Shown here: positions 1 through 16,561 of the stretch, piece by piece
Layout of the letters: the number at the start of each line of letters is the position of its first letter
How positions within the stretch are numbered: the stretch's first letter is position 1
NCBI GenBank assembly: GCA_017555205.1
Contig: JAFZGW010000013.1
Location: 124,001 to 188,000 of the forward strand
Length of the DNA stretch: 64,000 bases
Direction: 5' to 3'
DNA from: Akkermansia sp.
GTDB lineage: Bacteria; Verrucomicrobiota; Verrucomicrobiia; Verrucomicrobiales; Akkermansiaceae
Made by a program: the position numbers and the translations under genes
The notes under the pieces: model-generated
Told to the model about the DNA's origin: nothing
What the model saw: only the letters and a program-made list of their open reading frames with translations
Databases searched by the model: none

Positions 1-4
1 CGAT

Positions 5-1636: not shown

Positions 1637-1640
1637 AGAT

Positions 1641-2551: not shown

Positions 2552-2553
2552 CG

Positions 2554-3354
2554 ATGGACGCAGAGAAAATAACGGGCCCGTCTACGCCAGAAATGGGGAC
2601 ATTTCCGGCTACGCCGAGGCACCTGCCCTCCGAAACTCCGGGCAGGTGGGAGGATTATATCGGGCAGATTATGCTGGCTGATTGCATGGACGTGCTACGG
2701 CAGATTCCGGATGGCGCGGTGGATGTTTTGCTGACGGATCCGCCGTACGGGATGCCGGGACGCGAGGAGGGGGAGCGCGGGCGGTTCGGGAATAAAAACA
2801 GCCGTTTTGAAAAGTACCGCAAGATGGCAGGCGCCGGGCATTGGAAATATGGCGATGAGATGACGGCATGGGATGTGGCACCATCGCCGGAGGTGTTCCA
2901 GGAGATGTTTCGCGTGAGCAAGGAGCAGATTATATGGGGCGGCAATTATTTCGAGCTACCGGCCACGCGGTGTTTTAATGTGTGGCGCAAGCTGACCATC
3001 AGCGAGGGGTTTTCCATGGCCATGTGTGAATACGCGTGGACTAGCTACAAAACAAACGCGAAATGGTGGGAGTTCGCGCCGCAGGATGCGGAGCGGTTCC
3101 ACCCTACACAAAAGCCGCTGGGGCTGATTTGCAGGCAGCTGGAGGAGTACACCAAGCCGGGGGATTTGGTGCTGGATTGCTACAGCGGCAGCGGCACGGT
3201 GGCCGTGGCTTGTCAGCTGCTGGGGCGGCGGTTTATTGCGGTGGAGAAAAACCCGAAGTATTGGCAGATGAGCGTGGAGAGATTGCGGAGTACGGCAGCG
3301 CGGGTGGCAGATGCCTGCCCGGGCGCAGGTGGGCAGCAGTTGTTGCTTTTCTGA
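2554..3354 (+). CDS. DNA adenine or cytosine-N4 methyltransferase, beta class
   Basis: 266 residues. The catalytic motif DPPYGMPG (motif IV) is near residue 61. HPTQKP is near residue 184. The SAM-binding motif DCYSGSGT (motif I) is near residue 207, so motif IV precedes motif I, as in beta-class N6-adenine/N4-cytosine enzymes. There is no cognate restriction gene beside it. In a prophage such a solitary methyltransferase usually protects phage DNA from host restriction or tunes expression; that role is inference. It is the last long gene of the rightward late block. Confidence 0.88.
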   Translation: MDAEKITGPSTPEMGTFPATPRHLPSETPGRWEDYIGQIMLADCMDVLRQIPDGAVDVLLTDPPYGMPGREEGERGRFGNKNSRFEKYRKMAGAGHWKYGDEMTAWDVAPSPEVFQEMFRVSKEQIIWGGNYFELPATRCFNVWRKLTISEGFSMAMCEYAWTSYKTNAKWWEFAPQDAERFHPTQKPLGLICRQLEEYTKPGDLVLDCYSGSGTVAVACQLLGRRFIAVEKNPKYWQMSVERLRSTAARVADACPGAGGQQLLLF

Positions 3355-3429
3355 TGTAAGAAAATGCCCGATTTTTTTTTATATAATGCACTGGGAGAAC
3401 AAAAAAATGCGAAAAGAATAAAAAAGTTG

Positions 3430-3458
3430 TTGACAACTAAGCATCAAAGCGTTATAAT
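3430..3458 (+). promoter_or_regulatory. Exact sigma70 consensus promoter
   Basis: TTGACA at 3430-3435, a 17-nt spacer, then TATAAT at 3453-3458: a complete match to the bacterial consensus. It is much stronger than any other promoter in the window and drives a short unit ending at the terminator at 3621-3658. Confidence 0.85.
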
Positions 3459-3510
3459 GCGCGCGCCGCCCCAAGCGGCAATTCCGCCGGGAGGGAGCGG
3501 TTCATTACTA

Positions 3511-3612
3511 ATGAATACCCCAACCCGAAAATACAGAAAGCTGGCCGCTGTGCTGGACATAGCGGAGAAAGTACTGAGAATTATCCTCTTACTGTTAAAG
3601 CTTCTGTGTTAA
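3511..3612 (+). CDS. 33-residue hydrophobic peptide
   Basis: Starts at the ATG at 3511. A longer frame back to 3364 would cross the consensus promoter and is unlikely. The peptide has a basic N-terminal third (TRKYRK) and a C-terminal hydrophobic helix of Leu/Ile residues, fitting a single membrane segment. GGGAGGGAG lies about 14 nt upstream, in the loop of a possible CCGC/GCGG hairpin, so accessibility of the ribosome site may be controlled. It is transcribed alone from the consensus promoter and closed by a UUCG-loop terminator. Holin-like or toxin-like function is possible but not shown. Confidence 0.5.
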   Translation: MNTPTRKYRKLAAVLDIAEKVLRIILLLLKLLC

Positions 3613-3658
3613 AAAAAAAGTGCCCGGTGCAATTCGTTGCACCGGGCAACTTTTTTTT
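3613..3658. terminator. Strong bidirectional terminator with UUCG tetraloop
   Basis: A perfect 12-bp stem (3621-3632 with 3637-3648) caps a TTCG loop. It is flanked by A9 on the left and T8 at 3651-3658 on the right, so it can end transcription in both directions. Confidence 0.92.
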
Positions 3659-3668
3659 GAAAAAGAGA

Positions 3669-3697
3669 TTGACAAAAGAGGGGGCGCGTGGTTAAAT
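3669..3697 (+). promoter_or_regulatory. Promoter for candidate small RNA
   Basis: TTGACA at 3669-3674, a 17-nt spacer, and TTAAAT at 3692-3697. The -35 is perfect and the -10 matches 4 of 6. It lies immediately after the preceding terminator, so it starts a separate short transcript. Confidence 0.6.
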
Positions 3698-3703
3698 GAA
3701 GCC

Positions 3704-3778
3704 ATCCGAGGGAAGGGGTTCCCTCATTAGTAACGATTCTGCCCCGCTGCGGTTCGCCGTGGCGGGGCGATTTTTTTT
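3704..3778 (+). ncRNA. Candidate phage small RNA of about 75 nt
   Basis: The stretch between the promoter at 3669 and a strong terminator folds simply. A 7-bp hairpin (3708-3714 with 3719-3725, GGGG loop) is followed by a short single-stranded linker and the 3' hairpin. No plausible open reading frame starts within it. Promoter, hairpin and terminator in 110 bp suggest a dedicated small RNA located between the late and early operons. Confidence 0.5.
3741..3778 (+). terminator. Intrinsic terminator with UUCG tetraloop
   Basis: The stem 3741-3752 with 3757-3768 (12 pairs including two G-U) encloses a TTCG loop and is followed by T8 at 3771-3778. It is the 3' end of the candidate small RNA. Confidence 0.9.
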
Positions 3779-3797
3779 GCATTATACCCGGACGCAG

Positions 3798-3822
3798 AAA
3801 AAGCCCCGAAATGGGGCTTTTT
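3798..3822. terminator. Bidirectional terminator between convergent units
   Basis: AAAAAGCCCC and GGGGCTTTTT form a perfect 10-bp inverted repeat around GAAAT. It sits just past the stop of the leftward early operon (3884) and faces the rightward small transcripts. Confidence 0.85.
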
Positions 3823-3883
3823 CGTTTGGATCACATGGCAAAGTGTGATTTTATCGGCTAAATTAGCCGCAAATTGGCTGTTA

Positions 3884-4450
3884 TTAGCTGATGCCTGCGA
3901 GGGTGATGTCTTTGCGGCTGGCCAGATAGTCTGCCGTATGCACGAGGCGCTGCATGGGGGTGAGCGGTGTGGGCAGTTCTTCACCGGTGCGCGGGTTGAC
4001 GTTCCAGCGGCCCATGTGACATGCCACGATGGCGGCAATGGTGCGGGCTGCGGCATCGCGCACGGCATCCTCGCCACCGGCGGCCAGCAGTGTGGCTTGC
4101 TGCCATATGAGGTCTGCGGCGCGCTGTGGGTGCATGAATGCGGTGTATGTTTCGTTGTCGTTTTTCTTGCAGCAGTCGTGCAGGATGGCAGCGGCGATTG
4201 CTATGCTATAGTCGAGGGTGTTGGGCTGATAGTCGGCCATGGCAAGCAGGTGCGCGGTGAGGCGCACTACGGCGCGGGTGTGGCGGACAAGGCCGCCCTC
4301 GCCTAAGCTGATGGCGGGGTGGTATTTGCCGGTGGTGGCGGCGGGCATTGTCCAGAAGCAAGCTGGGCAGGCATCCAGCACGGCGCGCACGAGGGTGCGC
4401 ACGTTGTCGTGCTGAATCATGTTGATTTCGGTATCTAGTTTGGTTTTCAT
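3884..4450 (-). CDS. HD-domain phosphohydrolase, prophage early gene
   Basis: 188 residues. The HD-superfamily metal ligands can be read in order: His57, His91-Asp92 (ILHDCCK), His107, His145 (VACHMGRW) and Asp174 (HTADYLAS). Enzymes of this fold hydrolyse nucleotides, cyclic nucleotides or alarmones; the substrate here is unknown. It is the last gene of the leftward early operon, before a bidirectional terminator. A heptamer repeat lies directly upstream of its start. A role in host nucleotide-signal removal is speculation. Confidence 0.8.
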   Translation of the reverse strand: MKTKLDTEINMIQHDNVRTLVRAVLDACPACFWTMPAATTGKYHPAISLGEGGLVRHTRAVVRLTAHLLAMADYQPNTLDYSIAIAAAILHDCCKKNDNETYTAFMHPQRAADLIWQQATLLAAGGEDAVRDAAARTIAAIVACHMGRWNVNPRTGEELPTPLTPMQRLVHTADYLASRKDITLAGIS

Positions 4451-4471
4451 GTGTGTTTATTGGGTTATCAT

Positions 4472-4512
4472 GATTTACGAGTTACGATTTACGATTTACG
4501 ATTTACGATTTT
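4472..4512. repeat. Tandem heptamer repeat GATTTAC
   Basis: Units at 4472, 4479 (variant GAGTTAC), 4486, 4493 and 4500, plus a partial unit at 4507. It is intergenic, between the 88-residue protein gene and the HD gene. A related cluster lies at 9694-9721. Confidence 0.85.
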
Positions 4513-4533
4513 GCGGGTTGCGTTTGGGGGCTT

Positions 4534-4800
4534 TCATAAGAAGCAGATGATAGCGGTTGCGATGCCGATATTTACGGCGGCGGTTGCCAACAGGGTGATG
4601 ATGGTTGCGCGGGCGGCGTTTTGGGCGCGTGTTACAGCCTGCACGGCATCGTTGGAAAGTCGGCTGAGAGCGGAGTGAGCCGTGGCGGCTGTTTGGAGGC
4701 AGTTTTTCCAGCTTTCTGCGGCATCTGCTGCGTGTTTTTGGCAGGTGTTGACGAGTGTGCGCATTTCGCGCACTGTTGCGGTATGTGTGTGTGTTTTCAT
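4534..4800 (-). CDS. Small membrane-anchored phage protein
   Basis: 88 residues. An N-terminal helical part (about residues 10-60, Ala-rich, compatible with a coiled coil) is followed by one C-terminal hydrophobic segment ending in ATAIICFL, so it looks tail-anchored. No family recognised. It lies in the early operon between the SAM methyltransferase and HD genes. Regulation by the repressor is inferred from operon position. Confidence 0.6.
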   Translation of the reverse strand: MKTHTHTATVREMRTLVNTCQKHAADAAESWKNCLQTAATAHSALSRLSNDAVQAVTRAQNAARATIITLLATAAVNIGIATAIICFL

Positions 4801-4803
4801 GGC

Positions 4804-5274
4804 TTATATTTTAAGAAAAAAAGCGAAGTGTGTTTTATTTCGTGAATGAGTGACAAGGGGGGCGAACGGAGCGGCAAGCGGCAAGACGTGCGAGAGAGGA
4901 ATTTGTGTTTCGTTCCACTTAAAAAGCAAGCTGCCTCCGTTTTTAAGCACGCGGAAACATTCCGAAAAGCCTTGCCGCAAGTCATTTTGCCAGGTGTCGC
5001 GAGAAAGCACTCCGTAGCGTGCGCGCAGCCAGCTTTTCTGCCCAGCCCGCAGTAAATGCGGAGGATCAAACAAAACAGCCTGAAAATGGCCATCGGGGAA
5101 AGGTATGGCACGAAAATCTGCCACGATATCCGGAGCTATTACAACGGTGCGGCCATCGCATAGAGGGATGGAGTCTTGCCGGGCATCCATGTAGACGGCG
5201 GCGGGGTGGTGTTTGTTGTGCCACCAAGCCCGCCCGCCACAGCATGCGTCAAGTATGAGCGGTTTTTTAGTCAT
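4804..5274 (-). CDS. Phage SAM-dependent methyltransferase-like protein
   Basis: 156 residues. LDACCGGRAWW near residues 8-18 is an unusual SAM-binding loop, and FDPPHLL near residue 70 corresponds to motif IV. RVLKNGGSLLFKW near residue 115 is a typical late strand of class I methyltransferases. This pattern (ACCG, PDIVADF, FDPPH, FKW) matches a short family common in phage genomes whose substrate is unknown. The DPPH tetrad suggests a nucleic acid amino group. It ends 3 nt before the next start and overlaps the upstream ASCH gene by 4 nt. Confidence 0.8.
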   Translation of the reverse strand: MTKKPLILDACCGGRAWWHNKHHPAAVYMDARQDSIPLCDGRTVVIAPDIVADFRAIPFPDGHFQAVLFDPPHLLRAGQKSWLRARYGVLSRDTWQNDLRQGFSECFRVLKNGGSLLFKWNETQIPLSHVLPLAAPFAPLVTHSRNKTHFAFFLKI

Positions 5275-5735
5275 GGCGTGGTGTGTGTTTTGAGATAAAG
5301 CAGATAGTTTTCTAGCTGAGGATGTTTGGGGTGCGGTTCGTTCGCGGTGTAAATGAATTTTTGCACGGTGGGGCCGTGGTATGCGCGGCCATTGGTGCCG
5401 TAGTGCACCGGATATCGGACGTGCCAGGCGTAGCCCGCCGCCGCACCGGTGGTGCTATGGCGTGGCGAGCCGGTGAGGTATTGACGGGCTACAGAGACGG
5501 GGACGGCGGCAGGGGTGGCGATGGATTCCAGCCAGCGTTCGCGGCAGATGCCGGGTGGCGGCATGGGGGTGGCACCGGCAAAGGTGCAGTGGCCCCACAT
5601 TCTGCCGCCACCTACGAGGAAGATGGTATCACCGGGGTGGAGGTTGCGCGGCAGGTAGCTGCGGAGTTCTACGGTTTTGGTACCTGCCAGGATTGCGGCG
5701 GCGTAGTCCGGTTTGATGGCGAGAATGATGTTCAT
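5271..5735 (-). CDS. ASCH-domain (PUA-like) protein
   Basis: 154 residues from the ATG at 5735. The N-terminal signature IKPDYAAAILAGTKTVELR, followed by a YLPRN...GDTIFLVGGG strand, is typical of the ASCH fold. That fold binds RNA or modified nucleosides and includes an N4-acetylcytidine amidohydrolase. The start was chosen because ATGA overlaps the stop of the upstream small gene (5732-5735). Function in the phage is unknown; RNA binding is the safest guess. Its stop overlaps the methyltransferase start by 4 nt. Confidence 0.72.
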   Translation of the reverse strand: MNIILAIKPDYAAAILAGTKTVELRSYLPRNLHPGDTIFLVGGGRMWGHCTFAGATPMPPPGICRERWLESIATPAAVPVSVARQYLTGSPRHSTTGAAAGYAWHVRYPVHYGTNGRAYHGPTVQKFIYTANEPHPKHPQLENYLLYLKTHTTP

Positions 5736-5938
5736 GGTTGTGCGATGGTTTCCGTCCAGCAGATGTTGCCGGTGGAGGTGGTGATGGTGATGCGGGCGGG
5801 CAGTAGGCAACCGGAGCCGATGGCGCGCGCCCATAGTACGGCTTGCGGTAGGGTGGCGCTGATGTTGTGTGTGGTGGTGTGGCCATCAGCGGAGCGGATG
5901 GCGATGGTGTATTGTTTGTGGTGTGGTGGTGATGGCAT
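5732..5938 (-). CDS. Small phage protein of unknown function
   Basis: 68 residues from the ATG at 5938, which follows the helicase stop by 10 nt. A longer frame into the helicase gene exists but would be out of place. The sequence is Thr-rich with alternating hydrophobic residues (YTIAIRSADGHTTTHNIS) and looks like a small beta-sheet protein. Its stop overlaps the ASCH start as ATGA, supporting coupled translation. Confidence 0.6.
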   Translation of the reverse strand: MPSPPHHKQYTIAIRSADGHTTTHNISATLPQAVLWARAIGSGCLLPARITITTSTGNICWTETIAQP

Positions 5939-5948
5939 GGGGGGGGTG

Positions 5949-7604
5949 TCAGTTAGATAATTTTGTGAACGTGTAGCTACTTTGGCCAGCGGCCTCGCGC
6001 TTGCCGAATTCAAAGGGGACGCCGTTTTCATCGTACAGCTTTTGGCCGCGGAGTGATTCGAGGCGTTTGCCGAGTGAGCGGGCGGGGTCTTTGCCGCCGG
6101 TGATGGTCATGAGCCACTCGTTCGCATCGGCAATTTCCACCAGTTTTTTAACGGTGAAGGTTTTGGCGGTTTCGCCATCCATGAGGTTGCTTGCGATGTA
6201 GGCCAGCATGCGGGTAAGGGTGCGGCCTTGGAGGTCGCCACCGGCGCCGCTGTAGCGGCGTTCGGCGAAGGGGGACTGGAAGCCATTGTGCACCATAACA
6301 CTGCCCACAATCGCGGCGAAGGTCTCGAAGGTTGGCTTGTCTGAGCCTGCTACCAGTGACGGGCAACCGGCATCCGCCCAGTTTTTGACCATGGCCCACA
6401 TGAGGCGCAGCAGGTCGGCACGCCATGCAGGCTGTGCAAGTGCCTTTTTGTTCAGCGGGTTTTTGAATTTTCTCTTTACGGCATCGGTGGCCAGGAACAA
6501 GTCGCAAATGAGGGCGCGGCGTTCTACGTCTGCCGATGTGCCGATGTTGTTACCGGTGGCGTAGATTTGCATTTTGTTGCGGGCGGTGAACATTTCGAGC
6601 CCGCCGAGCTTGCGACCCTCCACCTCGTTACTGGTGGCAATCATGTTTATGGTGCCGCTGGATAATACCGGGATGTCATCGAGCATGTAGAACGGGCGGC
6701 GTGACAGGAGGGCGGCCTGTAGTGCCTTGATGGCGTCATCTTCATTCTTGCAATCCGGCGCGCCTGCGGCCATGCCCCATACGGGTGCCACGCAGAGCCA
6801 TGCCAGCAAGGATTTGCCGGAGCCGCGCTGATTGGCATTGAAAATACCTATGGGCATGACGTCATCCACCAGGAGGCGGCAGTATTGGCCGAGCATGAGC
6901 GCGAGACAGCAGCAGGCGGAGCGGTTTGTGACCGGTTGCGGGCCTTGCATGGTGGTGCTGGTGTGCAGTTTCCATACCTGATTTGCCTCTGCATCTGATT
7001 CCGGGCCCCACGGGAATGTGTGCATGAGGTTGTTCCATGCCGCGCGGCATGTGGCGGGGGGGTATTGACGGGCACCGGTGGTGTAGTTCAGCGTTTCGGC
7101 TGTGTATGTTAGTGTGGCTGCATTATAGCCGATTTCTGCCAGCTGGATGGTGCGTTTGCCGTCCTCGGTAGGTGCGCCCCATACCGGGAGGCGCACGGGG
7201 ATGATGGTTTCCAGTTCGTCCATGGAATAATACCATGGGTCGGAAGTCATGATGGCCTCGGTGATTTGTTTGGGAAGCTGCACGGATTTGGCTTTATCGC
7301 CGCTGCCCTTATGGAATACGAAAAAATCATACAGCCATGAGCGCAGGCGGGATGGTGTCATTTCCAGCGGCGTGGCGGGGTACAGCCCGAGCGCGTTCTG
7401 TTTGGTGGATTGTTCCACGGTGAAGTATTTATCCTCACGGCGGAAGATGGTATGGGTGGGCAGGTTCTCACACACGGCACGCGCGATGGTGAGCAAGTTC
7501 GGCTCATTGATATTGATGGCGGGCTTGCCGATTTCGGCGTTCAGCGGGGCGTGGCCGAGGCGCTGGCCGATGGTGGGTTTTCTCACTTCTTCAGAGTCTG
7601 ACAT
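5949..7604 (-). CDS. Phage replicative AAA+ helicase
   Basis: 551 residues. Walker A NQRGSGKS is at residues 258-265, Walker B YMLDD at 306-310, sensor-1-like YATGNN at 348-353 and an arginine pair (ERRALI) near 361-366, which together give a complete AAA+ core. The N-terminal 220 residues lack a recognised domain and the C-terminus is probably a winged helix. Such proteins act with a primase to open phage origins. The gene start overlaps the end of the primase gene by 22 nt, so the two probably work as a primase-helicase pair. Confidence 0.82.
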   Translation of the reverse strand: MSDSEEVRKPTIGQRLGHAPLNAEIGKPAININEPNLLTIARAVCENLPTHTIFRREDKYFTVEQSTKQNALGLYPATPLEMTPSRLRSWLYDFFVFHKGSGDKAKSVQLPKQITEAIMTSDPWYYSMDELETIIPVRLPVWGAPTEDGKRTIQLAEIGYNAATLTYTAETLNYTTGARQYPPATCRAAWNNLMHTFPWGPESDAEANQVWKLHTSTTMQGPQPVTNRSACCCLALMLGQYCRLLVDDVMPIGIFNANQRGSGKSLLAWLCVAPVWGMAAGAPDCKNEDDAIKALQAALLSRRPFYMLDDIPVLSSGTINMIATSNEVEGRKLGGLEMFTARNKMQIYATGNNIGTSADVERRALICDLFLATDAVKRKFKNPLNKKALAQPAWRADLLRLMWAMVKNWADAGCPSLVAGSDKPTFETFAAIVGSVMVHNGFQSPFAERRYSGAGGDLQGRTLTRMLAYIASNLMDGETAKTFTVKKLVEIADANEWLMTITGGKDPARSLGKRLESLRGQKLYDENGVPFEFGKREAAGQSSYTFTKLSN

Positions 7605-8743
7605 GATGCTATTTGCAGGATGCTGCGGCCATCGGCGGCAGGGTTGAGGTAAAGTAGTTGCTGCATGCGGGGTGCAGGCTGCCCGGCGGCATCGAGGTAG
7701 GGTTTGTGCTGGGCGCCCTCACCGGAGCCGTAGCGGAGACAGCCGGGCAGGCGCGTGAGCCGCACAGCGGTGATGGCGGCGGGGTCTGCACCAAGGGCGG
7801 CCAAGCGGGTGATGTAGTGCTGGCGCTGGACGTCAAATTCCTCCTTGGTGGCGCAGTTGACACGCACGAGGGCGTGGTATGATTTGCCGCCGGATGTGTA
7901 TACGGCCACGATGGGATCCGCGAGCTGGACGAGTATGCGGAGCCAGACGGATGGCGGTGCCTCGTCTGATTCCAGCACTAAGTACGGGAACCGGGTGGCG
8001 CAGGCGGCGTGACGGCGGCCCAGTTTTGCGCCGTATTTGTCGCGGTTGTTGTCGTTTGGTTGCCATTTGCCGGTGATGGGTGCAGCGAGGAACCAGCAGC
8101 CGTTCTGGCCGCCCTTTGGGAATGCTGTGCGAGGGTGGTGCGGCTGGGTGCCGAATGCGGGCGGGTGTTCCTCCAGCCGCACGGTGCTAACACCGGCAGT
8201 ATGCAGCACTTGGCCCTGCGATGCGAACTTGGTAAATACGAGGATTTTTTCGCCGAATTCGTAGATGGAGTCAAGCAGGAGTTTCGGCCATGTGAGGGGG
8301 TCTTTGGGGATGGGCACGGGTGAGTGTTCGCGCAGCCATGTGTCGTCTATGAGCACGGGGCACTGGCCAGCTGCGGCAGCGGCCTCGATTTCATCGTACG
8401 GGTCGGCGGGTGCTTTGCGGATGGCGGGGGCGGCGGCGTAGGCTGCGCGTGCGGCGTTGTGGTGCCGTTGGTTGGCTGCGGCGGTGGGGCATTTGCGGCG
8501 GAGGGCGCTGTACAGCGCTTGCATGGCGGCATCACGTGCGGCGGCGCAGGATTTGTGCACGCAGTTATCGTGGGGGCCTTTTCCCTCCTCAAACCAGATG
8601 CGGAAGTCGCGCGGCCCGTTGCCGGTGCTGTGGCAGTCTATGCCGGGGCATGTGGCTTGGCAGATGCCGTTGCCGATTTCTTCCAAGTCGGGGAAGATTT
8701 CGCGGGCGATGCGGATTTGTTCGTGTACGGGGATATCAAACAT
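7583..8743 (-). CDS. AEP-type phage primase with N-terminal zinc-binding region
   Basis: 386 residues. The N-terminus has clustered Cys/His (CQATCPGIDCH and later CVHKSC), fitting a zinc ribbon. Residues about 250-330 carry an archaeo-eukaryotic primase signature: LVLESDEAP (acidic metal ligands), then SGGKSYHALV (S-x-H type motif), then RLTRLPGCLR. It would prime phage DNA replication together with the downstream helicase, whose start it overlaps. Its own start overlaps the upstream stop by 8 nt. Polymerase activity is inferred. Confidence 0.75.
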   Translation of the reverse strand: MFDIPVHEQIRIAREIFPDLEEIGNGICQATCPGIDCHSTGNGPRDFRIWFEEGKGPHDNCVHKSCAAARDAAMQALYSALRRKCPTAAANQRHHNAARAAYAAAPAIRKAPADPYDEIEAAAAAGQCPVLIDDTWLREHSPVPIPKDPLTWPKLLLDSIYEFGEKILVFTKFASQGQVLHTAGVSTVRLEEHPPAFGTQPHHPRTAFPKGGQNGCWFLAAPITGKWQPNDNNRDKYGAKLGRRHAACATRFPYLVLESDEAPPSVWLRILVQLADPIVAVYTSGGKSYHALVRVNCATKEEFDVQRQHYITRLAALGADPAAITAVRLTRLPGCLRYGSGEGAQHKPYLDAAGQPAPRMQQLLYLNPAADGRSILQIASCQTLKK

Positions 8744-9035
8744 GGCGGGCGGTGGTGATGTTGGTTTCTATTTCGAGTCCGCAGGATTCTATAATTTTGC
8801 GCAGGGTGTCGATACGGGCGGGCAGTGTGCCGTCGTGTTCCACGAATGGCAGGGAGGCCGAGTATGTGAGCGTGAAGTATGCTTGCAGTAATGCGAATGC
8901 GAGTTCAAGGCTGGCCGCGGCGCCCAGTTGGCGCAGGGAGTCATGCGCAGACTGGCAGGCCATGCGGTTTATTTCTTCTTGCCAGTTGTCGGGGGTGAGC
9001 ATGGCGGTAACGGAGGGGAGGTCTGTTTCGGACAT
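8736..9035 (-). CDS. Small early phage protein
   Basis: 99 residues from the ATG at 9035, chosen because it lies 4 nt after the stop of the HTH gene upstream; a longer frame reads into that gene. The sequence is mostly helical (residues about 20-90) with no motif I recognise. Overlap of its stop with the primase start suggests translational coupling and a role in replication. Confidence 0.6.
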   Translation of the reverse strand: MSETDLPSVTAMLTPDNWQEEINRMACQSAHDSLRQLGAAASLELAFALLQAYFTLTYSASLPFVEHDGTLPARIDTLRKIIESCGLEIETNITTARHV

Positions 9036-9039
9036 AGTT

Positions 9040-9678
9040 TTATTTGAGGGTGATTTGTATGGCGTTTTTGCCGGTGGTGGTGAGGGTTTCTTTGGCGCTT
9101 GCCACGGCTGGCAAGCTGGCCAGCTGGCGCACGGTGGCGAAGCGGTGGGCGAAGTATACGGCAGGCTTGAACGGCACGAGGATGGTGCGCGCATCCAGCT
9201 GGGTGATGGTGGCGGCATCCAGTGTGCCGATGGTGGCAAGCTGGGCGTATACGTTGGCCGTGGCCTGCTTGCGGGAGATGGTACCGGCTACGGCGGGGCG
9301 TATGTGTTCCAGTACGGCATCGCGGGTATAAAATAGTGTGCGGCGGGAGCAACCGAGCGCGGCGGCCAGTTCGGTGATGGATGCCTCTGCTGCTGGGTGC
9401 AGGCGGAGGAGATGTGCCAGCACGGTGGCGTGCTGGTGTAGGTGGGCAAGGTCTGCCGGTGCACCGGTGCCGAGCAGTGCCAGCCGGATGCTGTGCAGGA
9501 TGTCCGCCACCCATGTGTCGAACCATGCTTGTACGGTTTCGAGTTGTTCCTCGTTCAGCAGTTCGGCGGGGAACGATGCGGGGAGCCGGAACGCGTCCGG
9601 GGCGCTGGTGGCATCGGGGATGGCGTCCTCGAGCAGCGGCAGGCAGAAATAAGGGGATACGGATTTTGGGGCTGACAT
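9040..9678 (-). CDS. Helix-turn-helix early phage protein
   Basis: 212 residues. ITELAAALGCSRRTLFYTRDAV at about residues 108-129 is a clear helix-turn-helix. The C-terminal part has weakly alternating strands (DARTILVPFKPAVYFAH). It lies between the MerR-like gene and the replication genes in the leftward operon, so an origin-binding or regulatory role is plausible. A heptamer repeat cluster lies 16-43 nt upstream of its start, a candidate binding site, though that link is inference. Confidence 0.7.
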   Translation of the reverse strand: MSAPKSVSPYFCLPLLEDAIPDATSAPDAFRLPASFPAELLNEEQLETVQAWFDTWVADILHSIRLALLGTGAPADLAHLHQHATVLAHLLRLHPAAEASITELAAALGCSRRTLFYTRDAVLEHIRPAVAGTISRKQATANVYAQLATIGTLDAATITQLDARTILVPFKPAVYFAHRFATVRQLASLPAVASAKETLTTTGKNAIQITLK

Positions 9679-9693
9679 GGCGCAGGGAAGTAC

Positions 9694-9721
9694 GAATTAC
9701 GAGTTACGAATTACGAAGTAG
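9694..9721. repeat. Tandem heptamer repeat GAATTAC/GAGTTAC
   Basis: Units at 9694 (GAATTAC), 9701 (GAGTTAC), 9708 (GAATTAC) and a degenerate unit at 9715. It is intergenic and directly upstream of the HTH gene at 9678. It shares the GAGTTAC unit with the cluster at 4472-4512. Confidence 0.8.
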
Positions 9722-9724
9722 TTT

Positions 9725-10003
9725 TTAATCAGTGGGACGCAGGAGGGCAAGGGTGGCGGCTACGTCTATCATGCGGCAGCCGGTGGCGCCGCGTTTGGTG
9801 GCAATGAGGCCGTACTGTTTCCAGCGTTCCAGTGTGCGGAGGCTGGGCGGTGTGGGCCAGAGCCCGGCGGCCTGAATCCACGGGGCGAGTAGGCGCAGGC
9901 TGGCCACGTATGGCGGGCAGCCTTGCGGGAGGGGCGGACGCGGGGCGGGTTTCGGCGCGGGGTAGCGCACGCCGGGGATGTGTGCAAATGGTTGGGAGTT
10001 CAT
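9725..10003 (-). CDS. MerR/excisionase-like small DNA-binding protein
   Basis: 92 residues. A proline-rich N-terminus (PAPKPAPRPPLP) is followed by a winged-helix type segment: PSLRTLERWKQYGLIATKR then MIDVAATLALL, the arrangement in MerR and excisionase families (turn, recognition helix, wing). It could be the excisionase or an early regulator. It is the third gene of the leftward operon, 8 nt after the preceding stop. Confidence 0.65.
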   Translation of the reverse strand: MNSQPFAHIPGVRYPAPKPAPRPPLPQGCPPYVASLRLLAPWIQAAGLWPTPPSLRTLERWKQYGLIATKRGATGCRMIDVAATLALLRPTD

Positions 10004-10011
10004 GTCGGGAG

Positions 10012-10359
10012 TTAAGCAAGGGAATCGAACATGCCGGAGCTGCCAGCGGGCTCGGGCTGGTGCACGGGGGCACCGGGGAGGGCGGCGGCGGCGGTGCGGA
10101 GTACGTGCAGAGCGGTGCGGAGTTGGGCGGAGTCCTGGGCAGTGGCGAGTTTGTGGCGGAGGGTGGCGATGAGTTGTTGCTCGCCGGCGATGGCATCGCA
10201 GTTTTCTACGCTGGCGGGGCGCGTGCGCATGGCTGCAAGGCGGCGCTCTGCGGTGCGCAGGGCGATGCGGGTGGCGGAACCTGCCACGGTGGGGGTGAGT
10301 AGATCCTTGAGGGTTTCAAGGGCGGATATGGCGGCTTGGTATGGTGTTTCGTTTTTCAT
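10012..10359 (-). CDS. Early phage protein with GSSGMFD tail (copy 1)
   Basis: 115 residues. Residues 1-90 are largely helical with Ala/Arg/Leu heptads. The C-terminus reads PVHQPEPAGSSGMFDSLA. The same tail occurs on the preceding gene's product, with matching DNA (about 10016-10070 versus 10378-10437). The rest of the proteins is unrelated, so the tail behaves like a portable peptide. No family recognised. Confidence 0.65.
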   Translation of the reverse strand: MKNETPYQAAISALETLKDLLTPTVAGSATRIALRTAERRLAAMRTRPASVENCDAIAGEQQLIATLRHKLATAQDSAQLRTALHVLRTAAAALPGAPVHQPEPAGSSGMFDSLA

Positions 10360-10373
10360 GGCGGCGGGAGGGG

Positions 10374-10631
10374 TTAATCAAGGAGGTTATCGAACATGCC
10401 GGAGCTGCCAGCGGCAGCGGGCTGGTGCACGGGTGCGGGTTCCGGTGCCGGTGCGGGGGTGGCTGCCGGTGCGGGTGCCTGCACCGGTGTGGTGGCGCGG
10501 CGGGATTTGCGGAGGGTGGCAAGGCGGCCCATGGGCTGCAGCAGGCCATCGGACAGGGAGAGCCCCAGCGCGGCTGCTCCTGCCGCGGCGAGGCCTATCA
10601 GTTGCGGGGTGGTTTTCAGATTGGTGGTCAT
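10374..10631 (-). CDS. First early phage protein with GSSGMFD tail (copy 2)
   Basis: 85 residues from the ATG at 10631; a GTG six nt upstream lies inside an operator and is less likely. A hydrophobic segment (QLIGLAAAGAAALGLSL) near residues 9-25 may be a membrane helix. An Ala/Pro linker (about residues 50-65) and the tail PVHQPAAAGSSGMFDNLLD follow. It is the first gene of the leftward operon and is read from the operator-controlled promoter at 10660-10688. Role unknown. Confidence 0.65.
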   Translation of the reverse strand: MTTNLKTTPQLIGLAAAGAAALGLSLSDGLLQPMGRLATLRKSRRATTPVQAPAPAATPAPAPEPAPVHQPAAAGSSGMFDNLLD

Positions 10632-10634
10632 GTT

Positions 10635-10763
10635 CACAAATTTTGTGTTTCTGAGGTGAAATTAATCACAATTTTTGTGACTTGTCAACACAAATTTTGT
10701 GATTTACTGAAAGAGAAATACACAAATTTTGTGATTTGGCTTTACAGATACACAAAATTTGTG
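10635..10763. promoter_or_regulatory. Five-site operator array of the prophage switch
   Basis: Palindromes of the form CACAAATTTTGTG lie at 10635-10647, 10667-10679 (CACAATTTTTGTG), 10689-10701, 10721-10733 and 10751-10763. Start-to-start spacings are 32, 22, 32 and 30. Three are the same 13-mer, one is its exact reverse complement and one is slightly degenerate. They overlap both divergent promoters and are the likely binding sites of the adjacent HTH repressor. Confidence 0.9.
10660..10688 (-). promoter_or_regulatory. Leftward early promoter
   Basis: Read on the minus strand, TTGACA is at 10688-10683, followed by a 17-nt spacer and TTAATT at 10665-10660. Operators at 10667 and 10689 overlap the spacer and abut the -35, so repressor binding would block it. 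Confidence 0.65.
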
Positions 10764-10769
10764 TACAAT
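10741..10769 (+). promoter_or_regulatory. Repressor promoter, probably leaderless
   Basis: TTTACA at 10741-10746, a 17-nt spacer and TACAAT at 10764-10769. The ATG at 10776 is only 6 nt after the -10, so the mRNA would begin at or next to the start codon. The operator at 10751-10763 fills the spacer, giving autorepression. Confidence 0.75.
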
Positions 10770-10775
10770 AGCGCC

Positions 10776-11186
10776 ATGGAACTCGAAGAACTAAAGCAAG
10801 CAGTAACCCAGAAATTTGGGTCTATCAAAGCCTGTGCAGAAGAGTTGGGCGTATCGTACAACACGCTGCAAACGACGTTGACAGGCAAGAATCCCATGAC
10901 GAAAGCCCTCAAGAATCACCTGATGCTCGCGCTCGGTGCACGCGAGGCGGTTTTGGTGTACCGCGTGGATGTGCCTACGCACAAGGTGGAGGAGCTGACC
11001 GCGGGGCGCGGCTGTGTGACTGAGGCTGACCATCGCGAGGCGCTGCAGGCCATCATCGAGCACAATCTGCAGGAGCTGGCCAAGCTGGGCGCGGAGCTGG
11101 AGTGGACGCCGGAGCAGCGCGAGGCGCTGGGCATCTCCACGCCTCTGCCGGGTGGTGGCTATGAGGTGCGGGAGCCCTTTGCGTGA
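10776..11186 (+). CDS. Prophage repressor-type HTH protein
   Basis: 136 residues from the ATG at 10776. The N-terminal 50 residues contain a helix-turn-helix (SIKACAEELGVSYNTLQTTL), and the C-terminal half is helical and acidic, probably for oligomerisation. It is read divergently from the early operon across five palindromic operators, the standard position of a lysogeny repressor. There is no LexA-type cleavage domain, so induction, if any, is by another route. A perfect stem terminator follows. Confidence 0.8.
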   Translation: MELEELKQAVTQKFGSIKACAEELGVSYNTLQTTLTGKNPMTKALKNHLMLALGAREAVLVYRVDVPTHKVEELTAGRGCVTEADHREALQAIIEHNLQELAKLGAELEWTPEQREALGISTPLPGGGYEVREPFA

Positions 11187-11209
11187 GATAGTTTTCTTTG
11201 AGTGCAGTC

Positions 11210-11244
11210 AGCGGCAGGGTGATGCGCACGCCCTGCCGCTTTTT
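11210..11244 (+). terminator. Terminator of the repressor gene
   Basis: AGCGGCAGGG (11210-11219) pairs perfectly with CCCTGCCGCT (11231-11240) around an 11-nt loop and is followed by TTTT. Confidence 0.88.
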
Positions 11245-11285
11245 CGCTTGCGTTGTTTTGCGTTTTGTGTTAGCCTGAGAGAGTT

Positions 11286-11741
11286 ATGAACAATATGCCG
11301 AAATGGTTGCAGAATTTCTTTTTTGTGCTGGGTGTCGCGTTTTGGATATTCGTGGCGCTCAAAGGGTGCGCGTGGCTTGCTGAGGATGAGCCCGCGCCGC
11401 CGAAAATGGCCCCGGTGGAGCTGTGCGAAGGGTTGAAGCGCGGGGATATCGTTGAGCTGCGCTATACGACGCACTTGCATGCAACTGAGGCCAACGCTAT
11501 GATGGATGTGACGGTAATGCGCATGGGAACAGATGAAGATCTGCGCATCTGGGTGGCATCGCTGCTGGAGATGGAAAAAGCAGGCACGGCGCTGCATGTT
11601 GAAGAGGGTACACAGTTGGAAGTGCTGCGGGTACACAAGCACGATACAAAGGTGGATTTCGTGCGATATACCGTTGAGGTAGCGGGTAGCCGTGGCACCT
11701 GGTGGATAACCGGCGCGATGCTAAAAAAGCCGGAGAAGTAA
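11286..11741 (+). CDS. Membrane-anchored protein expressed beside the repressor
   Basis: 151 residues. One N-terminal membrane helix (residues about 9-28, FFFVLGVAFWIFVALKGCAWL) is followed by a domain of about 115 residues that looks beta-rich and would lie outside or in the periplasm. No family recognised. It is rightward, after the repressor terminator, and convergent with the integrase. Genes at this place in prophages are often lysogenic conversion or superinfection-exclusion factors; this is inferred from position only. Confidence 0.65.
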   Translation: MNNMPKWLQNFFFVLGVAFWIFVALKGCAWLAEDEPAPPKMAPVELCEGLKRGDIVELRYTTHLHATEANAMMDVTVMRMGTDEDLRIWVASLLEMEKAGTALHVEEGTQLEVLRVHKHDTKVDFVRYTVEVAGSRGTWWITGAMLKKPEK

Positions 11742-11751
11742 CGCATGCGCG

Positions 11752-13083
11752 TTACGGGCAGCCCCTTTCCCCCGGTGGTGTTTCCGGTAGGATTTGCCAC
11801 CATTTATCTGCCATCTCGCGGGTGGTGCCAGCCATATTGACGTACCGAGAATAGAGCAGCTGCGCGGATCGGTGGCCCATGTTGAGCTGTAGCTGGGCGA
11901 TTTCGCCGATGCGCGCCTTGAGGTAATAGGTTGCGTATGAATGGCGCAGGCAGTCATTCTGCCATTTGCCGCCGCCGAAACCAGCGCGTGCGCGGAGGGC
12001 GCTTAGGTTGGGGTTCAGGGAGGGGTCTTGAGTTACGAGGTCGGTAGGTGCTGCGTCTGCCGGGCGGCAGGCACGCAGCCAGGCAGCGAGGGTGGGGTGC
12101 ATTTCGATATGGCGCTGGCCGCCGGTTTTGCTGTTCGGCGCGCGCACCGATATGATAGCATCCTCAAAATCAATATCTTGCCAGCGCAGGCGGGTACATT
12201 CTGTGGGGCGCATGCCCGCGAACGCGCACACGGCTATATATGGCCGGAGGTGCGTCAAATCCGCCTTGGCTGCACGTTTGGCGGCGTGGTTGGTGATGTG
12301 TGCGGCGGCGGCGATTTCGTCGGCGGTGGCCGGGCGGCAAGCGGAGAATAGTTTTTTAAGGTTCGCGGGCGGCAGTGCGGTTATCTCCGCCTCTTTCACG
12401 TGCCGCTGTTCCAGGCAGGTGACAGGGTTTTCCATGCGCACCATCCTGCGTTTGATTGCCCAGTTGAATAGTGCATGGAGCTGCCTACGGCCACCGTTCC
12501 ACGAGGTTGGGGCATCTGGCCATGTGTTGTCTAAAATGGCTTGTATTTTTTCTGGTGTAAGGAGCTCAAGCGGAGTGGATGACAGCCCAGGATTGCGGGA
12601 AAATAAGGTGCTGCAGGTGGTATTGCGTGTGCGGATGGTGGCAGCCGACTGATGCCCTTTAGTAGCCGCCACCTTTGCGAGGATGTCGGCAAGAGTAAGC
12701 GGCGCGGCGGCAGGTGTAGCGGCCACCTCACCCCCGCCCCCCGCACCCCCAGAGGGTATAAACGGTGCACATGCCACGCCTTGCGTGTGAACGGCGGCGA
12801 GCAGTTGCCGCACGGCATCGCACAGGGACAGGCCCGAGCCCTCAAGAAGTTTGCATGCCGCGGCGGCATCGGCGGCAAGGCGAGCCGGGAGCATGGCCAC
12901 GGGCTTTTCGCCGTTCGCTTTCACATGCATGCGGATGGACGCGATATAGCTTGCGGCTGCTGCCCGCGTGGCGAAGCGGTTATATTTGCGCTTGCCGGTT
13001 GGCGAGAGCCGAGCAGGCAAAACAACTAGCCACGGGCTTTTCGCGTGGCCTTTGTAGTTATCCCTCTGGATGCTTAACTGCAT
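11752..13083 (-). CDS. int: Tyrosine recombinase (prophage integrase)
   Basis: 443 residues. An N-terminal arm-binding part is followed by a SAM-like core-binding domain (about residues 145-240). The catalytic domain has Arg in AGMRPTECTRLRW, Lys in NSKTGG, an Arg-His in CLRHSYATY (the preceding His of the usual HxxR is Asp), His in MGHRSAQ and Tyr in SRYVN. It integrates and excises the element. It has its own promoter (13090-13118) with the -10 only 6 nt from the ATG. Confidence 0.93.
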   Translation of the reverse strand: MQLSIQRDNYKGHAKSPWLVVLPARLSPTGKRKYNRFATRAAAASYIASIRMHVKANGEKPVAMLPARLAADAAAACKLLEGSGLSLCDAVRQLLAAVHTQGVACAPFIPSGGAGGGGEVAATPAAAPLTLADILAKVAATKGHQSAATIRTRNTTCSTLFSRNPGLSSTPLELLTPEKIQAILDNTWPDAPTSWNGGRRQLHALFNWAIKRRMVRMENPVTCLEQRHVKEAEITALPPANLKKLFSACRPATADEIAAAAHITNHAAKRAAKADLTHLRPYIAVCAFAGMRPTECTRLRWQDIDFEDAIISVRAPNSKTGGQRHIEMHPTLAAWLRACRPADAAPTDLVTQDPSLNPNLSALRARAGFGGGKWQNDCLRHSYATYYLKARIGEIAQLQLNMGHRSAQLLYSRYVNMAGTTREMADKWWQILPETPPGERGCP

Positions 13084-13089
13084 GCCGCT

Positions 13090-13118
13090 ATTATAACCTC
13101 GGGCAACGGGTTAGGCAA
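13090..13118 (-). promoter_or_regulatory. Integrase promoter, probably leaderless
   Basis: Minus strand TTGCCT at 13118-13113, a 17-nt spacer and TATAAT at 13095-13090. Only 6 nt separate the -10 from the ATG (13083-13081). Confidence 0.75.
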
Positions 13119-13305
13119 CAGTAAGAGGCGGGACGTGGCGGCGCGTGGCGGGAAAAGGCGGCGCGTGGCGGTGTTGTTTTCTTATTTGTTTTTAGTGCGT
13201 TATACACTGAGCTGTAGCATATTGCAAAAAGGCGCGCGCCGTGCAAGTGCAATCTTACGGCATCATTTAAAAAGCGTAGATTGTAAGAACTTAAAAACAT
13301 ACATT

Positions 13306-15537
13306 ATGAAATTACATCTACCACTCACTCTATTAACTGCCGTTCTGGCAGCCTATATCGCCTTACCTGCCCAAGCCGTAGAAGCCCCGGATACTTATAA
13401 TAGGAAGGATATCTGCGACTCGGACATTCTAGCAAACTACACCACCAATACTGAAGCCGATTACTACGCCTTCCTTCTGGGAAAAGATATAGTAGTGCCC
13501 CCGGATATAAAATTGGATGGCGGAAATCTGCTTTTTACAACTAATGAGAATTTCGCCCCCGTTTCTCTGGTGTTTTCTGGCAGTAATTCATCAGCTCTGA
13601 TAAATCAGGATTCACTGGTATTTGATACCTTGTCTCATCTTTCTATCTCAGACTATAGCAACGGAGGAATTAGCACTCACGGTAATCTGGTTATTCAAAA
13701 TGTGAATGACGGTATAGATAATCCGGAAATTCCGGATGTACTCTTCTCTGGTAACACCTCCACCAACGATATAGGAGGCGGTGCAATTTATACCGAAAAC
13801 GCAGCCACTATCAACAGAAATGGATGGGTAATTTTCTCTGGTAACTCAGGTTCCTCTGCTACAAGATATGAATATGGCGGCGGTGCGATTTATGCTGGAG
13901 ATGTAGTAACTATCAGCGAAAATGAGAAGGTGACATTTTTGGAAAACTGCATTACCTCGCGCGGCAATGGAGGCGCGATTTATGCAGAAAATACTGTAAT
14001 CATCAGCAAAAATGCTGAGGTATCCTTCTCTGGAAATTATTTCAATACAACAGGTTTCACCAGTTACGGCGGCGGCGCGATTTGTGCTGGAAACACGGTA
14101 ACTATCAGCGAAAATGGAGATGTAACCTTCGCAGGCAACTATTCAAGTGGGTCAGGAGCTGCAATTTATGCATCTAGAGTAATAAATATCAGCAACAATA
14201 AAGAAGTAGCCTTCACCGATAACTACACCTATGATGGGTGGCACGGCGGCGGTGCGATTGCGGGTAAAGAGATAAACATCCATGAGAATGAGAACGTGAG
14301 CTTTATCGGCAATTCTGCCAGCGTTGGTGGCGCACTTTATACACTAGAGGGTAGTGGAGGCAATGTTAGCATTAGAGGAAATGGAAATGTTATCTTCTCC
14401 GGTAACTCAATTACTCCTAACGGCCGCTCGTACTACAAAGGTGGTGCGATTAGTACAAACGGCAATGTGTCCATTCTGGGGAATGACACTGTATGCTTTG
14501 AGAAGAACCATGAAAATAAATACGGTACATACCGCTTGCGCAGTATTTATAGTAGCGGTAGCGGAGGTATAAATCTTTCTGCTAAAACCGGAGGATACAT
14601 CACTTTTTACGATTCCGTATACACAGGCGGAGATTCATATTTCAACAGTGATTATGTGGATGCCGAAGGCAATACGCAAAGCACCAAGGGTGACATCATC
14701 TTCAGCGGCAAATATGCGGAGCAGCATCTGAACGAAATTCTGGCAGCTAATAATGAAGGGCGCACGGCGACAGCTGAAGAAATTCTGAACTCTCAGACCA
14801 GCACTATTGAAGGAAACGCATATTTGAACGGCGGCAGTCTTCAGATTAAGGACGGGGCTGTATTCAATGTAAATGGTGATACGGTAAACATTGCCGCTGG
14901 AAGCAATGCTACGCTTGCTATCAGCGATGCCGAGCTTGTGGCAGCGAATGCCACGGTAGAGGTAGGAGAAGCCACCACGCTGCAGCTGAGCAATGGCGCC
15001 GCCGTCACAGCAGATGAAATCAACATTGCTGCCGGGGCAACTTTAGCTCTTGTTGATGTCGCAATTACGACATCAACAAGCGATTTGATGGTAGCAGCCT
15101 ATCGTGTATCCAGCCTTAATGTTATCAATGCCGATTTGACCTTCGCTGCCGGTTCTACACTGGTGACGGATGGTACCGGTATCAACATGACAGAAGGCTC
15201 GGTGCTGACCTTCAACGCCACCAGCGAAGGCGAGAAAATCAATCTGGTGTTCACTCTTGGTACTGAATACGGCGAGGAGGGTCTCGTGCAGTTGTTCTCC
15301 AATGTGGACATCGTGAAGTTCCTCATGGATGGTAAAGAAATGGACGCCTCAACAACACTGTTGGCCAGCGACTTCTTCACCGGTGATTGCATCAACGAGA
15401 ACACCACGCTACACTACGACAGCAACACCAATATGGTATACCTGCAAGGCGTCAGCAAAGTAGTCCCCGAACCCACTACGGCGACACTGAGCCTGCTGGC
15501 ACTGGCAGCCCTGGCTATGCGCCGTAGACGCAAATAA
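13306..15537 (+). CDS. Secreted beta-helix surface protein with PEP-CTERM tail
   Basis: 743 residues from the ATG at 13306; the frame is open to 13135, but a signal peptide (MKLHLPLTLLTAVLAAYIALPAQA) begins here. From about residue 150 to 410 it carries at least seven GGA[IL] motifs alternating with nine F-x-x-N motifs (FSGN, FAGN, FTDN), the repeat grammar of chlamydial Pmp passengers, which fold as a right-handed beta helix. Residues about 490-640 resemble adhesin beta-strand repeats. The C-terminus has VPEPTT, a hydrophobic helix and RRRRK, the PEP-CTERM sorting signal. No autotransporter barrel is present. It is a surface adhesin candidate. Confidence 0.85.
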   Translation: MKLHLPLTLLTAVLAAYIALPAQAVEAPDTYNRKDICDSDILANYTTNTEADYYAFLLGKDIVVPPDIKLDGGNLLFTTNENFAPVSLVFSGSNSSALINQDSLVFDTLSHLSISDYSNGGISTHGNLVIQNVNDGIDNPEIPDVLFSGNTSTNDIGGGAIYTENAATINRNGWVIFSGNSGSSATRYEYGGGAIYAGDVVTISENEKVTFLENCITSRGNGGAIYAENTVIISKNAEVSFSGNYFNTTGFTSYGGGAICAGNTVTISENGDVTFAGNYSSGSGAAIYASRVINISNNKEVAFTDNYTYDGWHGGGAIAGKEINIHENENVSFIGNSASVGGALYTLEGSGGNVSIRGNGNVIFSGNSITPNGRSYYKGGAISTNGNVSILGNDTVCFEKNHENKYGTYRLRSIYSSGSGGINLSAKTGGYITFYDSVYTGGDSYFNSDYVDAEGNTQSTKGDIIFSGKYAEQHLNEILAANNEGRTATAEEILNSQTSTIEGNAYLNGGSLQIKDGAVFNVNGDTVNIAAGSNATLAISDAELVAANATVEVGEATTLQLSNGAAVTADEINIAAGATLALVDVAITTSTSDLMVAAYRVSSLNVINADLTFAAGSTLVTDGTGINMTEGSVLTFNATSEGEKINLVFTLGTEYGEEGLVQLFSNVDIVKFLMDGKEMDASTTLLASDFFTGDCINENTTLHYDSNTNMVYLQGVSKVVPEPTTATLSLLALAALAMRRRRK

Positions 15538-15568
15538 AGTTCATGTAAAACAATTACATGTGTGGAAT

Positions 15569-15605
15569 AATCCCCCATGGCCGTTTGGCTGTGGGGGATT
15601 TTTTC
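15569..15605 (+). terminator. Terminator of the PEP-CTERM protein gene
   Basis: A 14-bp stem (15569-15582 with 15587-15600, two G-U pairs) around GTTT is followed by a T-run. A smaller hairpin (CATGTAA...TTACATG) lies at 15542-15560. Confidence 0.9.
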
Positions 15606-15632
15606 GACGAGGAATTGCGCAGGTCGCTGCGG

Positions 15633-15857
15633 CTATTTAGGAGAGGGCACAAAACCCTTTGCGGGGCGGAAGACCATTTTTCCGCGCTCAGTATTATATT
15701 CAAAGGTTCCTAGTTTTGAGATATGGAGCTTAGGTTCGCTGAGAGCTGCGGACTGAATAGAATTGAGCACCGCATCTACTGCGGCAGATGCGGTGCTGCG
15801 GGTTGCGCCCGGTCCCATATAGCGCTGAACGCGGGCAATGAGTTGTTTTTTATTCAC
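15633..15857 (-). CDS. HU/IHF-like DNA-binding protein, short
   Basis: About 74 residues from a GTG at 15857; the upstream frame runs into the phosphatase gene and no ATG fits. It matches the HU fold: a basic helix NKKQLIARVQRYMG, then TASAAVDAVLNSIQSAA, then the strand pair ISKLGTFEYNTERGKMVFRPAKGF. The last part corresponds to the HU signature region (G-x-F-x-x-x-x-R), although the DNA-wrapping arm is short. The start codon is uncertain. It ends just before the terminator of the convergent gene. Confidence 0.65.
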   Translation of the reverse strand: MNKKQLIARVQRYMGPGATRSTASAAVDAVLNSIQSAALSEPKLHISKLGTFEYNTERGKMVFRPAKGFVPSPK

Positions 15858-15874
15858 CGTAATGGTGTGTGTGC

Positions 15875-16561
15875 TCAGATTTGTTTGAAAGCCTTTACGC
15901 CCCATTCGCGGCATTGCCAGTTGGTGCCGTCTTCGCAGGTAAAGATACAGACACCGCCCGTGGCAACCTTGATATCGTGCGTAGCACAGAAGCCGGCATA
16001 GTCGCCGGTAATGTGCGGGGCAAAGCGAATGGTGCCGTTGGAGGAAACGCAAAGGAGCACTTCGCCCTCCTGAACCTCATCGGCGAGAGCCGTCCAGTTG
16101 TTGATAATTTGCTGTACATCCACTTTCCAACCGGGGGGAACGATTGCCTCGGCATTCCATTTGTCAATAGCAGCGGCGCCGATAGCATTCAGCTCTTCGG
16201 GGCTTAAATCGGCGGGATTTTTGCCCTCGGCGGCGGCGATATCTGCGCCTAAGCGGGCTTTTGTATCTTCCTCGCTGTGGTTTTCATCGGGACCGTAGTC
16301 GACCTCAATGAAGCGAGCATCGGGCTGCACGGGGCAGGGGTTGCCAAGCTCCTCGGCAGCGAGAGCCGCTGTACACATGGTGCGCTGCAACGGAGCCGCG
16401 AGAATACGAGTGGGAGTCAGCCCCAGCTTGGTGAGATATTTGCCGATTCCTCGCCCTCTTTCTTCTTCCACGAGGGGAAGATCAGTGCGGGAGCCCACTC
16501 GCGTGGGAGTTTCACCCTTGCGGAAGGTGTTGCCGTGGCGTGCGATAATGAGTGTTTTCAT
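15875..16561 (-). CDS. Histidine phosphatase family protein, altered active site
   Basis: 228 residues. The phosphoryl-accepting motif ARHGNT is at residues 7-12, with the second arginine in APLQRTMCTAAL and the acid in FIEVDYG. The usual second catalytic His (V-S-H-G-G) is replaced: the sequence reads LCVSSNGTIR. The fold is that of phosphoglycerate mutase-like phosphatases, but activity may be weak or altered. It follows the topoisomerase gene by 31 nt with no terminator, so it is probably co-transcribed. Confidence 0.8.
   Translation of the reverse strand: MKTLIIARHGNTFRKGETPTRVGSRTDLPLVEEERGRGIGKYLTKLGLTPTRILAAPLQRTMCTAALAAEELGNPCPVQPDARFIEVDYGPDENHSEEDTKARLGADIAAAEGKNPADLSPEELNAIGAAAIDKWNAEAIVPPGWKVDVQQIINNWTALADEVQEGEVLLCVSSNGTIRFAPHITGDYAGFCATHDIKVATGGVCIFTCEDGTNWQCREWGVKAFKQI

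Follow-up and report, generated by a model that had tools for sequence, protein, structure and literature searches.

A C-terminal peptide common to two unlike early proteins of an Akkermansia prophage is kept in a second phage and may be a lineage-specific docking tail

In a prophage of Akkermansia sp., the first two early proteins, here called P1 and P2, have unlike bodies and end in the same peptide. This tail is retained on two early proteins of a second phage (viral contig L003), where the first of them has a different head; among related prophages, tail type agrees with the clade of the phage primase; and in the lineage with the tail DPDLNLR, a recombination joint lies within the tail-coding DNA. 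We read the tail, tentatively and at a little short of an even chance, as a docking peptide, a disordered C-terminus with which exchangeable heads would bind a partner specific to the phage lineage.

The window, i.e., the whole stretch of 64,000 nucleotides that was analysed, contains the right part of the prophage, with the integrase (11752-13083, minus strand; Pfam Phage_integrase, E 2.2e-11), a repressor-like gene (10776-11186, plus strand; PHROG transcriptional regulator, E 1.7e-5), and then minus-strand early genes running leftwards. P1 and P2 are the first genes divergent from the repressor-like gene, i.e., they occupy the Cro position, and between P1 and the repressor lie five 13-bp palindromes of the CACAAATTTTGTG type (10635-10763; spacings of 32, 22, 32, and 30 bp), which are likely operators for the repressor, P1, or both. 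Downstream of P2 follow a 92-aa protein that is perhaps excisionase-like (9725-10003, minus strand; PHROG excisionase, a weak match at E 0.18), an HTH-like protein (9040-9678, minus strand; HTH_23, E 2.4e-4, below its cut-off), and a module of a primase-like gene (7583-8743, minus strand; PHROG DNA primase, E 3.3e-11) and a helicase/ATPase-like gene (5949-7604, minus strand), the latter with a P-loop-like GSGKS read from the sequence and no Pfam match. Window primase and helicase are related to those of A. muciniphila phage Moulinsart; megablast of window positions 1-13500 against the phage collection gave no match. A search with the 92-aa protein matched only the L003 contig among viral contigs and nothing in genome contigs, its own genome being alone among 260; an N-terminal motif, PFA(H/D)IPGVxYP, is common to this protein and one of different length in another prophage (L147:7018-7989). 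Repressor C-termini are also alike in three prophages, GYEVREPFA in the window gene, GYAAAREPFA in L146:4906-5388, and TYSKALDPYA in L229:12301-12717, and are perhaps another shared tail. A link between the tail and the primase start MFDIPV, with only MFD in common, was rejected as chance.

P1 (10374-10637, minus strand) has 87 aa when read from a GTG; an alternative ATG at 10631, the start taken in the original prediction, gives 85 aa. It consists of a body (10503-10637), a Pro/Ala-rich linker in which no helix or strand is predicted (10434-10496), and the first tail copy, PVHQPAAAGSSGMFDNLLD plus stop (10374-10433). P2 (10012-10359, minus strand; 115 aa) likewise comprises a body, a linker, and the second tail copy, PVHQPEPAGSSGMFDSLA plus stop (10012-10068, minus strand). 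The two C-termini have PVHQPxxAGSSGMFD in common. Window positions 1-16000 contain 144 ORFs of 40 aa or longer, which form 10,296 pairs; the C-termini of P1 and P2 score 68 and the next best pair 40. BLASTP found no match between the bodies. The tail DNA is 89% identical across 53 nt, with all eight codons of AGSSGMFD the same. One tail on two unlike bodies and nearly identical tail DNA, both claimed by the original prediction, are thus confirmed. In its own genome (84% complete), a degenerate DNA pattern for S-S-G-M-F-D had three matches: the tails of P1 and P2 and an internal T-C-G-M-F-D near window position 19429.

Structure models place the tails in flexible ends. The P2 model has four helices spanning residues 6-93, with pLDDT of about 45 for residues 101-115, and the P1 model, of low confidence (mean pLDDT 56), has helices at 11-23 and 28-44; nothing is predicted past residue 93 of P2 or residue 44 of P1, as expected of a disordered linker ahead of a terminal peptide. 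P1 is probably a small DNA-binding protein, and its sequence pattern weakly suggests a ribbon-helix-helix (RHH) body. Pfam support for this fold is weak and concerns other heads: RHH_3 (E 0.0032) and a NikA-like profile (E 0.0019) each matched 1 of 17 heads, RHH_10 matched the head of the first tailed protein of locus L262 (L262a) at E 0.098, and window P1 matched none. None of the 27 matches from a PDB profile search of the heads was named as an RHH protein, and the ten best of the 27, all designed proteins, were set aside. A fold search with P2 returned 381 matches, none reaching E 0.001.

The tail also occurs in L003, which carries a P2 relative (77% identity) ending in PKAAPSSGMFDIA and a first early protein ending in PKAAPSSGMFDSIA. 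The eight core codons of this tail pair differ by three silent changes, and tail pairs within the window prophage or within L003 are more alike than tails compared between these phages. The repressors of the two phages are 25% identical in a forced alignment. The tail is therefore not confined to two genes of one genome, and its portability, proposed in the original prediction, is supported by its retention after the Pro/Ala-rich linker where the first body differs. The P2 relative (L003:5995-6507) contains an internally duplicated helical hairpin that is single in window P2. P2 relatives were found at one viral locus and, among 260 family genomes, only in its own genome, with a further weak match in G047 that lies inside an 858-aa frame and was taken as chance. 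Back-translated patterns revealed no relatives of P1. An exact-codon tail pattern matched 16 viral and 91 genome stretches; 40 of 108 tail-pattern matches lay within 25 residues of a stop, and only two, both in L003, were judged to be Pro/Ala-linked early proteins. One further sequence pattern matched a single unrelated contig (L300) and was discarded.

The same design recurs with other tails in prophages chosen by their primase, for which 26 of 260 family genomes had a match. In L145, two early proteins end in VVVNGADPDLNLR and VIVAGEDPDLNLR (pair score 66, next 35), with the common tail DPDLNLR, and the viral contig L219 repeats this pair; in L147, the endings are LRVEGYDPEFTPNPENFGQLS and LRVEGYDPEFTPDPENFGTLN (pair score 89, next 52), with GYDPEFTPxPENFG in common. 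L146 and Moulinsart (L163) have a single tailed protein, and the viral contigs L217, L218, L220, and L221 have one tail each. The single ending in L148, TPEEEDALLGTIGA, is without a second example, so its standing as a tail is guesswork. In L155 and L160, which carry the primase, no tail was seen in the ORF listing of their early regions; L149-L154 and L156-L159 were screened for C-terminal pairs only. In a control screen of 24 other loci, pairs scoring at least 60 occurred in two, L153 and L231, both dismissed as apparent DNA duplications; ORF C-termini recur on both strands in L231:15642-16946 with pair scores up to 95, probably from tandem DNA repeats. A 166-aa L146 protein considered as a tail-less relative of the second L147 protein was too weak a match (E 0.007). 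Tails of different lineages gave no convincing alignment with each other, and a literature search of titles and abstract openings found no such tails. The tailed Moulinsart protein is unannotated (ON453896.1, 23148-24344), with two antisense hypothetical proteins annotated over the tailed gene and its neighbours.

Within a tail lineage, heads vary and tails stay. The bodies of first proteins are 27-46% identical in global alignments: between the window and L003, 13/39 body positions are identical in a forced alignment vs. 7/8 in the tail core; between L145 and L163, 24/52 vs. 13/13; and between L146 and L147, 12/44 vs. 13/16 (15/16 against the second L147 protein). Primase identity is 70% for window-L003, 99% for L145-L163 (the prophage primase of G006/L145 is 99% identical to that of Moulinsart), and 73% for L146-L147, vs. 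41-51% between tail types and 33-39% for L155, where no tail was seen; the agreement is based on these three pairs, and the tailed prophages were for the most part located by way of the primase. The P1 head, in turn, is related to a 49-aa protein without a tail that occupies the corresponding place in L193/L229 (16/36 identical, E 6e-10, in a single comparison), the repressor beside the L229 head is 60/136 (44%) identical to the window repressor, and the genome of this head, G033, had no match to the window primase. On this sequence evidence, tail type seems to follow the replication module rather than the immunity region, since L229 has a related head and repressor without the tail and L003, with another repressor, has it. 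Among 30 loci collected by repressor, the five tailed ones (L185-L189) are the same five prophages as in the primase set. Tail-less look-alikes in the Cro position are frequent (L190, L192, L193, L196, L197, L200, and L207), and their genomes (G039, G020, G033, G043, G025, G056, and G054) had no primase match.

A second family of tails was seen in 86 loci matching the repressor profile (30 plus 56 among the matches listed, prophages already read being left out; L240 and L241 cover only 401 bases each). A search expression composed after the endings had been seen found KKP(A/S)A-type endings in 19 of the 3,310 ORFs with 30 aa or more, representing 14 distinct proteins; L258 and L288 overlap on one contig. 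All were judged to be small early proteins that either occupy the Cro position next to a repressor-like gene or are tandem copies. Six groups of bodies can be told apart, although the two found in L262 are weakly alike (30% over 37 residues, E 1e-4), so that the body types may be counted as five or six. In other prophages of the genus, KKP(A/S)A or QKPSA endings were noted in L195, L199, L243, L252, L256-L258, L260, L262, L264, L265, L267, L270, L273, L274, L288, L290, and L291, in several of which the stop codon overlaps an ATG (ATGA). Across different bodies in the KKPAA group, DNA likeness sets in only within the tail codons and can break off at the stop (e.g., L199-L243, -40 to +1; L199-L262a, -48 to +2; L243-L262b, -17 to +1); for L195-L265, it starts at -55 and continues for 53 nt beyond the stop.

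In a related lineage, such DNA is also the site of a recombination joint. Moulinsart DNA tracks the first tailed gene of L145 (A) up to GATCCTGACCTGAATTTGAG, and from there the second (B) through the stop into the next gene, so the two prophages differ by a segment bounded exactly by two tail copies, which was either lost from one of them or gained by the other. Within this segment, L145 carries protein B and a minus-strand gene with a NikA-like match (E 0.0043, below cut-off). Two tailed proteins with a minus-strand gene between them occur in one prophage both in L145:4959-6353 and in L262:1-1577, where the order is a repressor-profile match, a KKPSA protein, the minus-strand gene, and a KKPAA protein; these plans are perhaps stacked immunity units with the tail copies as repeats. 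A joint within tail-coding DNA means that one tail could come to stand on two proteins without any function of the tail, and we consider it unlikely, though a serious alternative, that the tail is only a boundary sequence where the immunity cassette ends, by which cassettes are stacked or swapped through homologous recombination, the peptide itself doing little. The switch in Moulinsart, the onset of KKPAA-group likeness at the tail codons, and the double-tailed L262 all favour this explanation. A boundary sequence of this kind was seen for two tail types other than that of the window pair (L163 vs. L145 A/B; L199, L243, and L262a). Against the explanation, neither P2 nor the second L147 protein has, as far as read, a divergent repressor of its own. 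The minus-strand gene of L262, HTH-like by eye, had no Pfam regulator match. Silent changes dominate between tails: in 11 tail comparisons, some sharing sequences and all chosen because their peptides were alike, a choice biased towards silent changes, 35 of 49 DNA differences were at third codon positions, and 31 changed codons were silent and 12 were not. KPSA is identical in L252 and L262a despite three silent differences in four codons. Given the biased choice, the nominal probability calculated for these counts is not to be trusted as it stands; the comparisons do show tail peptides staying alike while their DNA drifts.

Two other roles for the peptide would make it a signal to, or a mimic of, host proteins. 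A C-terminal degron, by which a host protease would keep the tailed early regulators short-lived, is improbable in our judgment. Rapid turnover would be in keeping with a Cro-like role, the models leave the terminal tails without structure, and the KKPAA, SLA, and SIA tails end in alanine, as does the tmRNA tag of the same genome (AYSKNEYAMAA). However, the conserved core of the window-type tails, SSGMFD, is internal and the last residues vary (SLA, SIA, IA, and NLLD), which does not match the conserved extreme C-terminus of ssrA/ClpX-type signals, although KKPAA tails would partly fit; other tails end in LNLR, GTL, QLS, or TLN, and recognition by a host protease should have led to one prevailing tail type per genus. 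Mimicry of a docking motif known from the host, be it the tail of single-stranded DNA-binding protein (SSB) or a sliding-clamp motif, would account for a short acidic and hydrophobic tail after a flexible linker and is very improbable. The likeness to the SSB tail drawn by the original prediction did not hold up: the two SSB genes above cut-off in the same genome end in DEADDDIPF and EADLDIPF, and the tails end in GMFDSLA and GMFDNLLD, without an acidic tip of the DDIPF kind. Peptides that bind the beta clamp follow a QxxLF-like consensus, which the tail lacks, with no Q ahead of the hydrophobic pair in SSGMFD. Unlike tail types within one host genus also argue against a common host motif.

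If the tail is a docking peptide, P1 and P2 would be early prophage proteins that present it on a flexible linker, the P1 head belonging to the exchangeable immunity region and the tail to the phage lineage, so that whichever head is present, along with P2, would be tied to one constant partner. This partner would most likely be a product of the adjacent replication module, which we favour because tail type agrees with the primase clade, although the product of any other gene linked to the module would be equally compatible. Frequent tail-less look-alikes in the Cro position, and tails of different lineages that do not align convincingly, speak against docking. Of the common partner in replication or packaging put forward by the original prediction, the replication side is suggested by the agreement with the primase clade and packaging is unsupported. 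With a constant tail situated where the immunity cassette ends, the DNA that encodes it may double as homology for swapping heads and for gaining or losing cassettes, perhaps at the window's own tail as well. A more far-reaching form, in which DNA-binding heads are exchanged on a constant tail that links whatever immunity is present to the lineage's replication machinery, with the coding DNA as a socket for swapped or stacked cassettes and for prophages of two immunities, is possible but doubtful, and is rated slightly lower for the minus-strand L262 gene without a regulator match.

Were the tail to act in this way, a plug-and-socket peptide would explain how immunities are swapped without loss of contacts to the early machinery, and a translated recombination joint might stack immunities, which could be studied in the inducible Moulinsart of a cultured gut bacterium. 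Tests should be simple because Moulinsart, whose host is A. muciniphila, is one of the 13 induced prophages listed for the OMM12 consortium (PMC10197239).

In architecture, the tail resembles the C-terminal docking tail of SSB: both are short, conserved end peptides that a disordered linker sets apart from the folded body. It differs in its sequence, in its presence on two unlike proteins, and in varying between phage lineages. In phage immunity regions of the Cro/CI type, a repressor and a small early regulator diverge around operators, as do the window repressor and P1 around an operator-like array; here, the small regulator is probably a strand-helix-helix protein with a lineage-specific tail, and two tailed proteins may stand in tandem. 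Degrons of phage and host, among them the C-terminus of MuA and the ssrA tag, are terminal peptides that can set the fate of a protein, and the tail may do likewise, although the conserved core of the window type stands off the very end and its terminal residues vary. Boundary sequences at the joints of phage mosaics are named in PMC3029335, which also describes structure explicable by general recombination. The tail-coding DNA is, like these, short shared DNA at a module edge that is open to homologous recombination; what sets it apart is that the joint is translated, at the 3′ end of a Cro-position gene, and that its peptide is kept.
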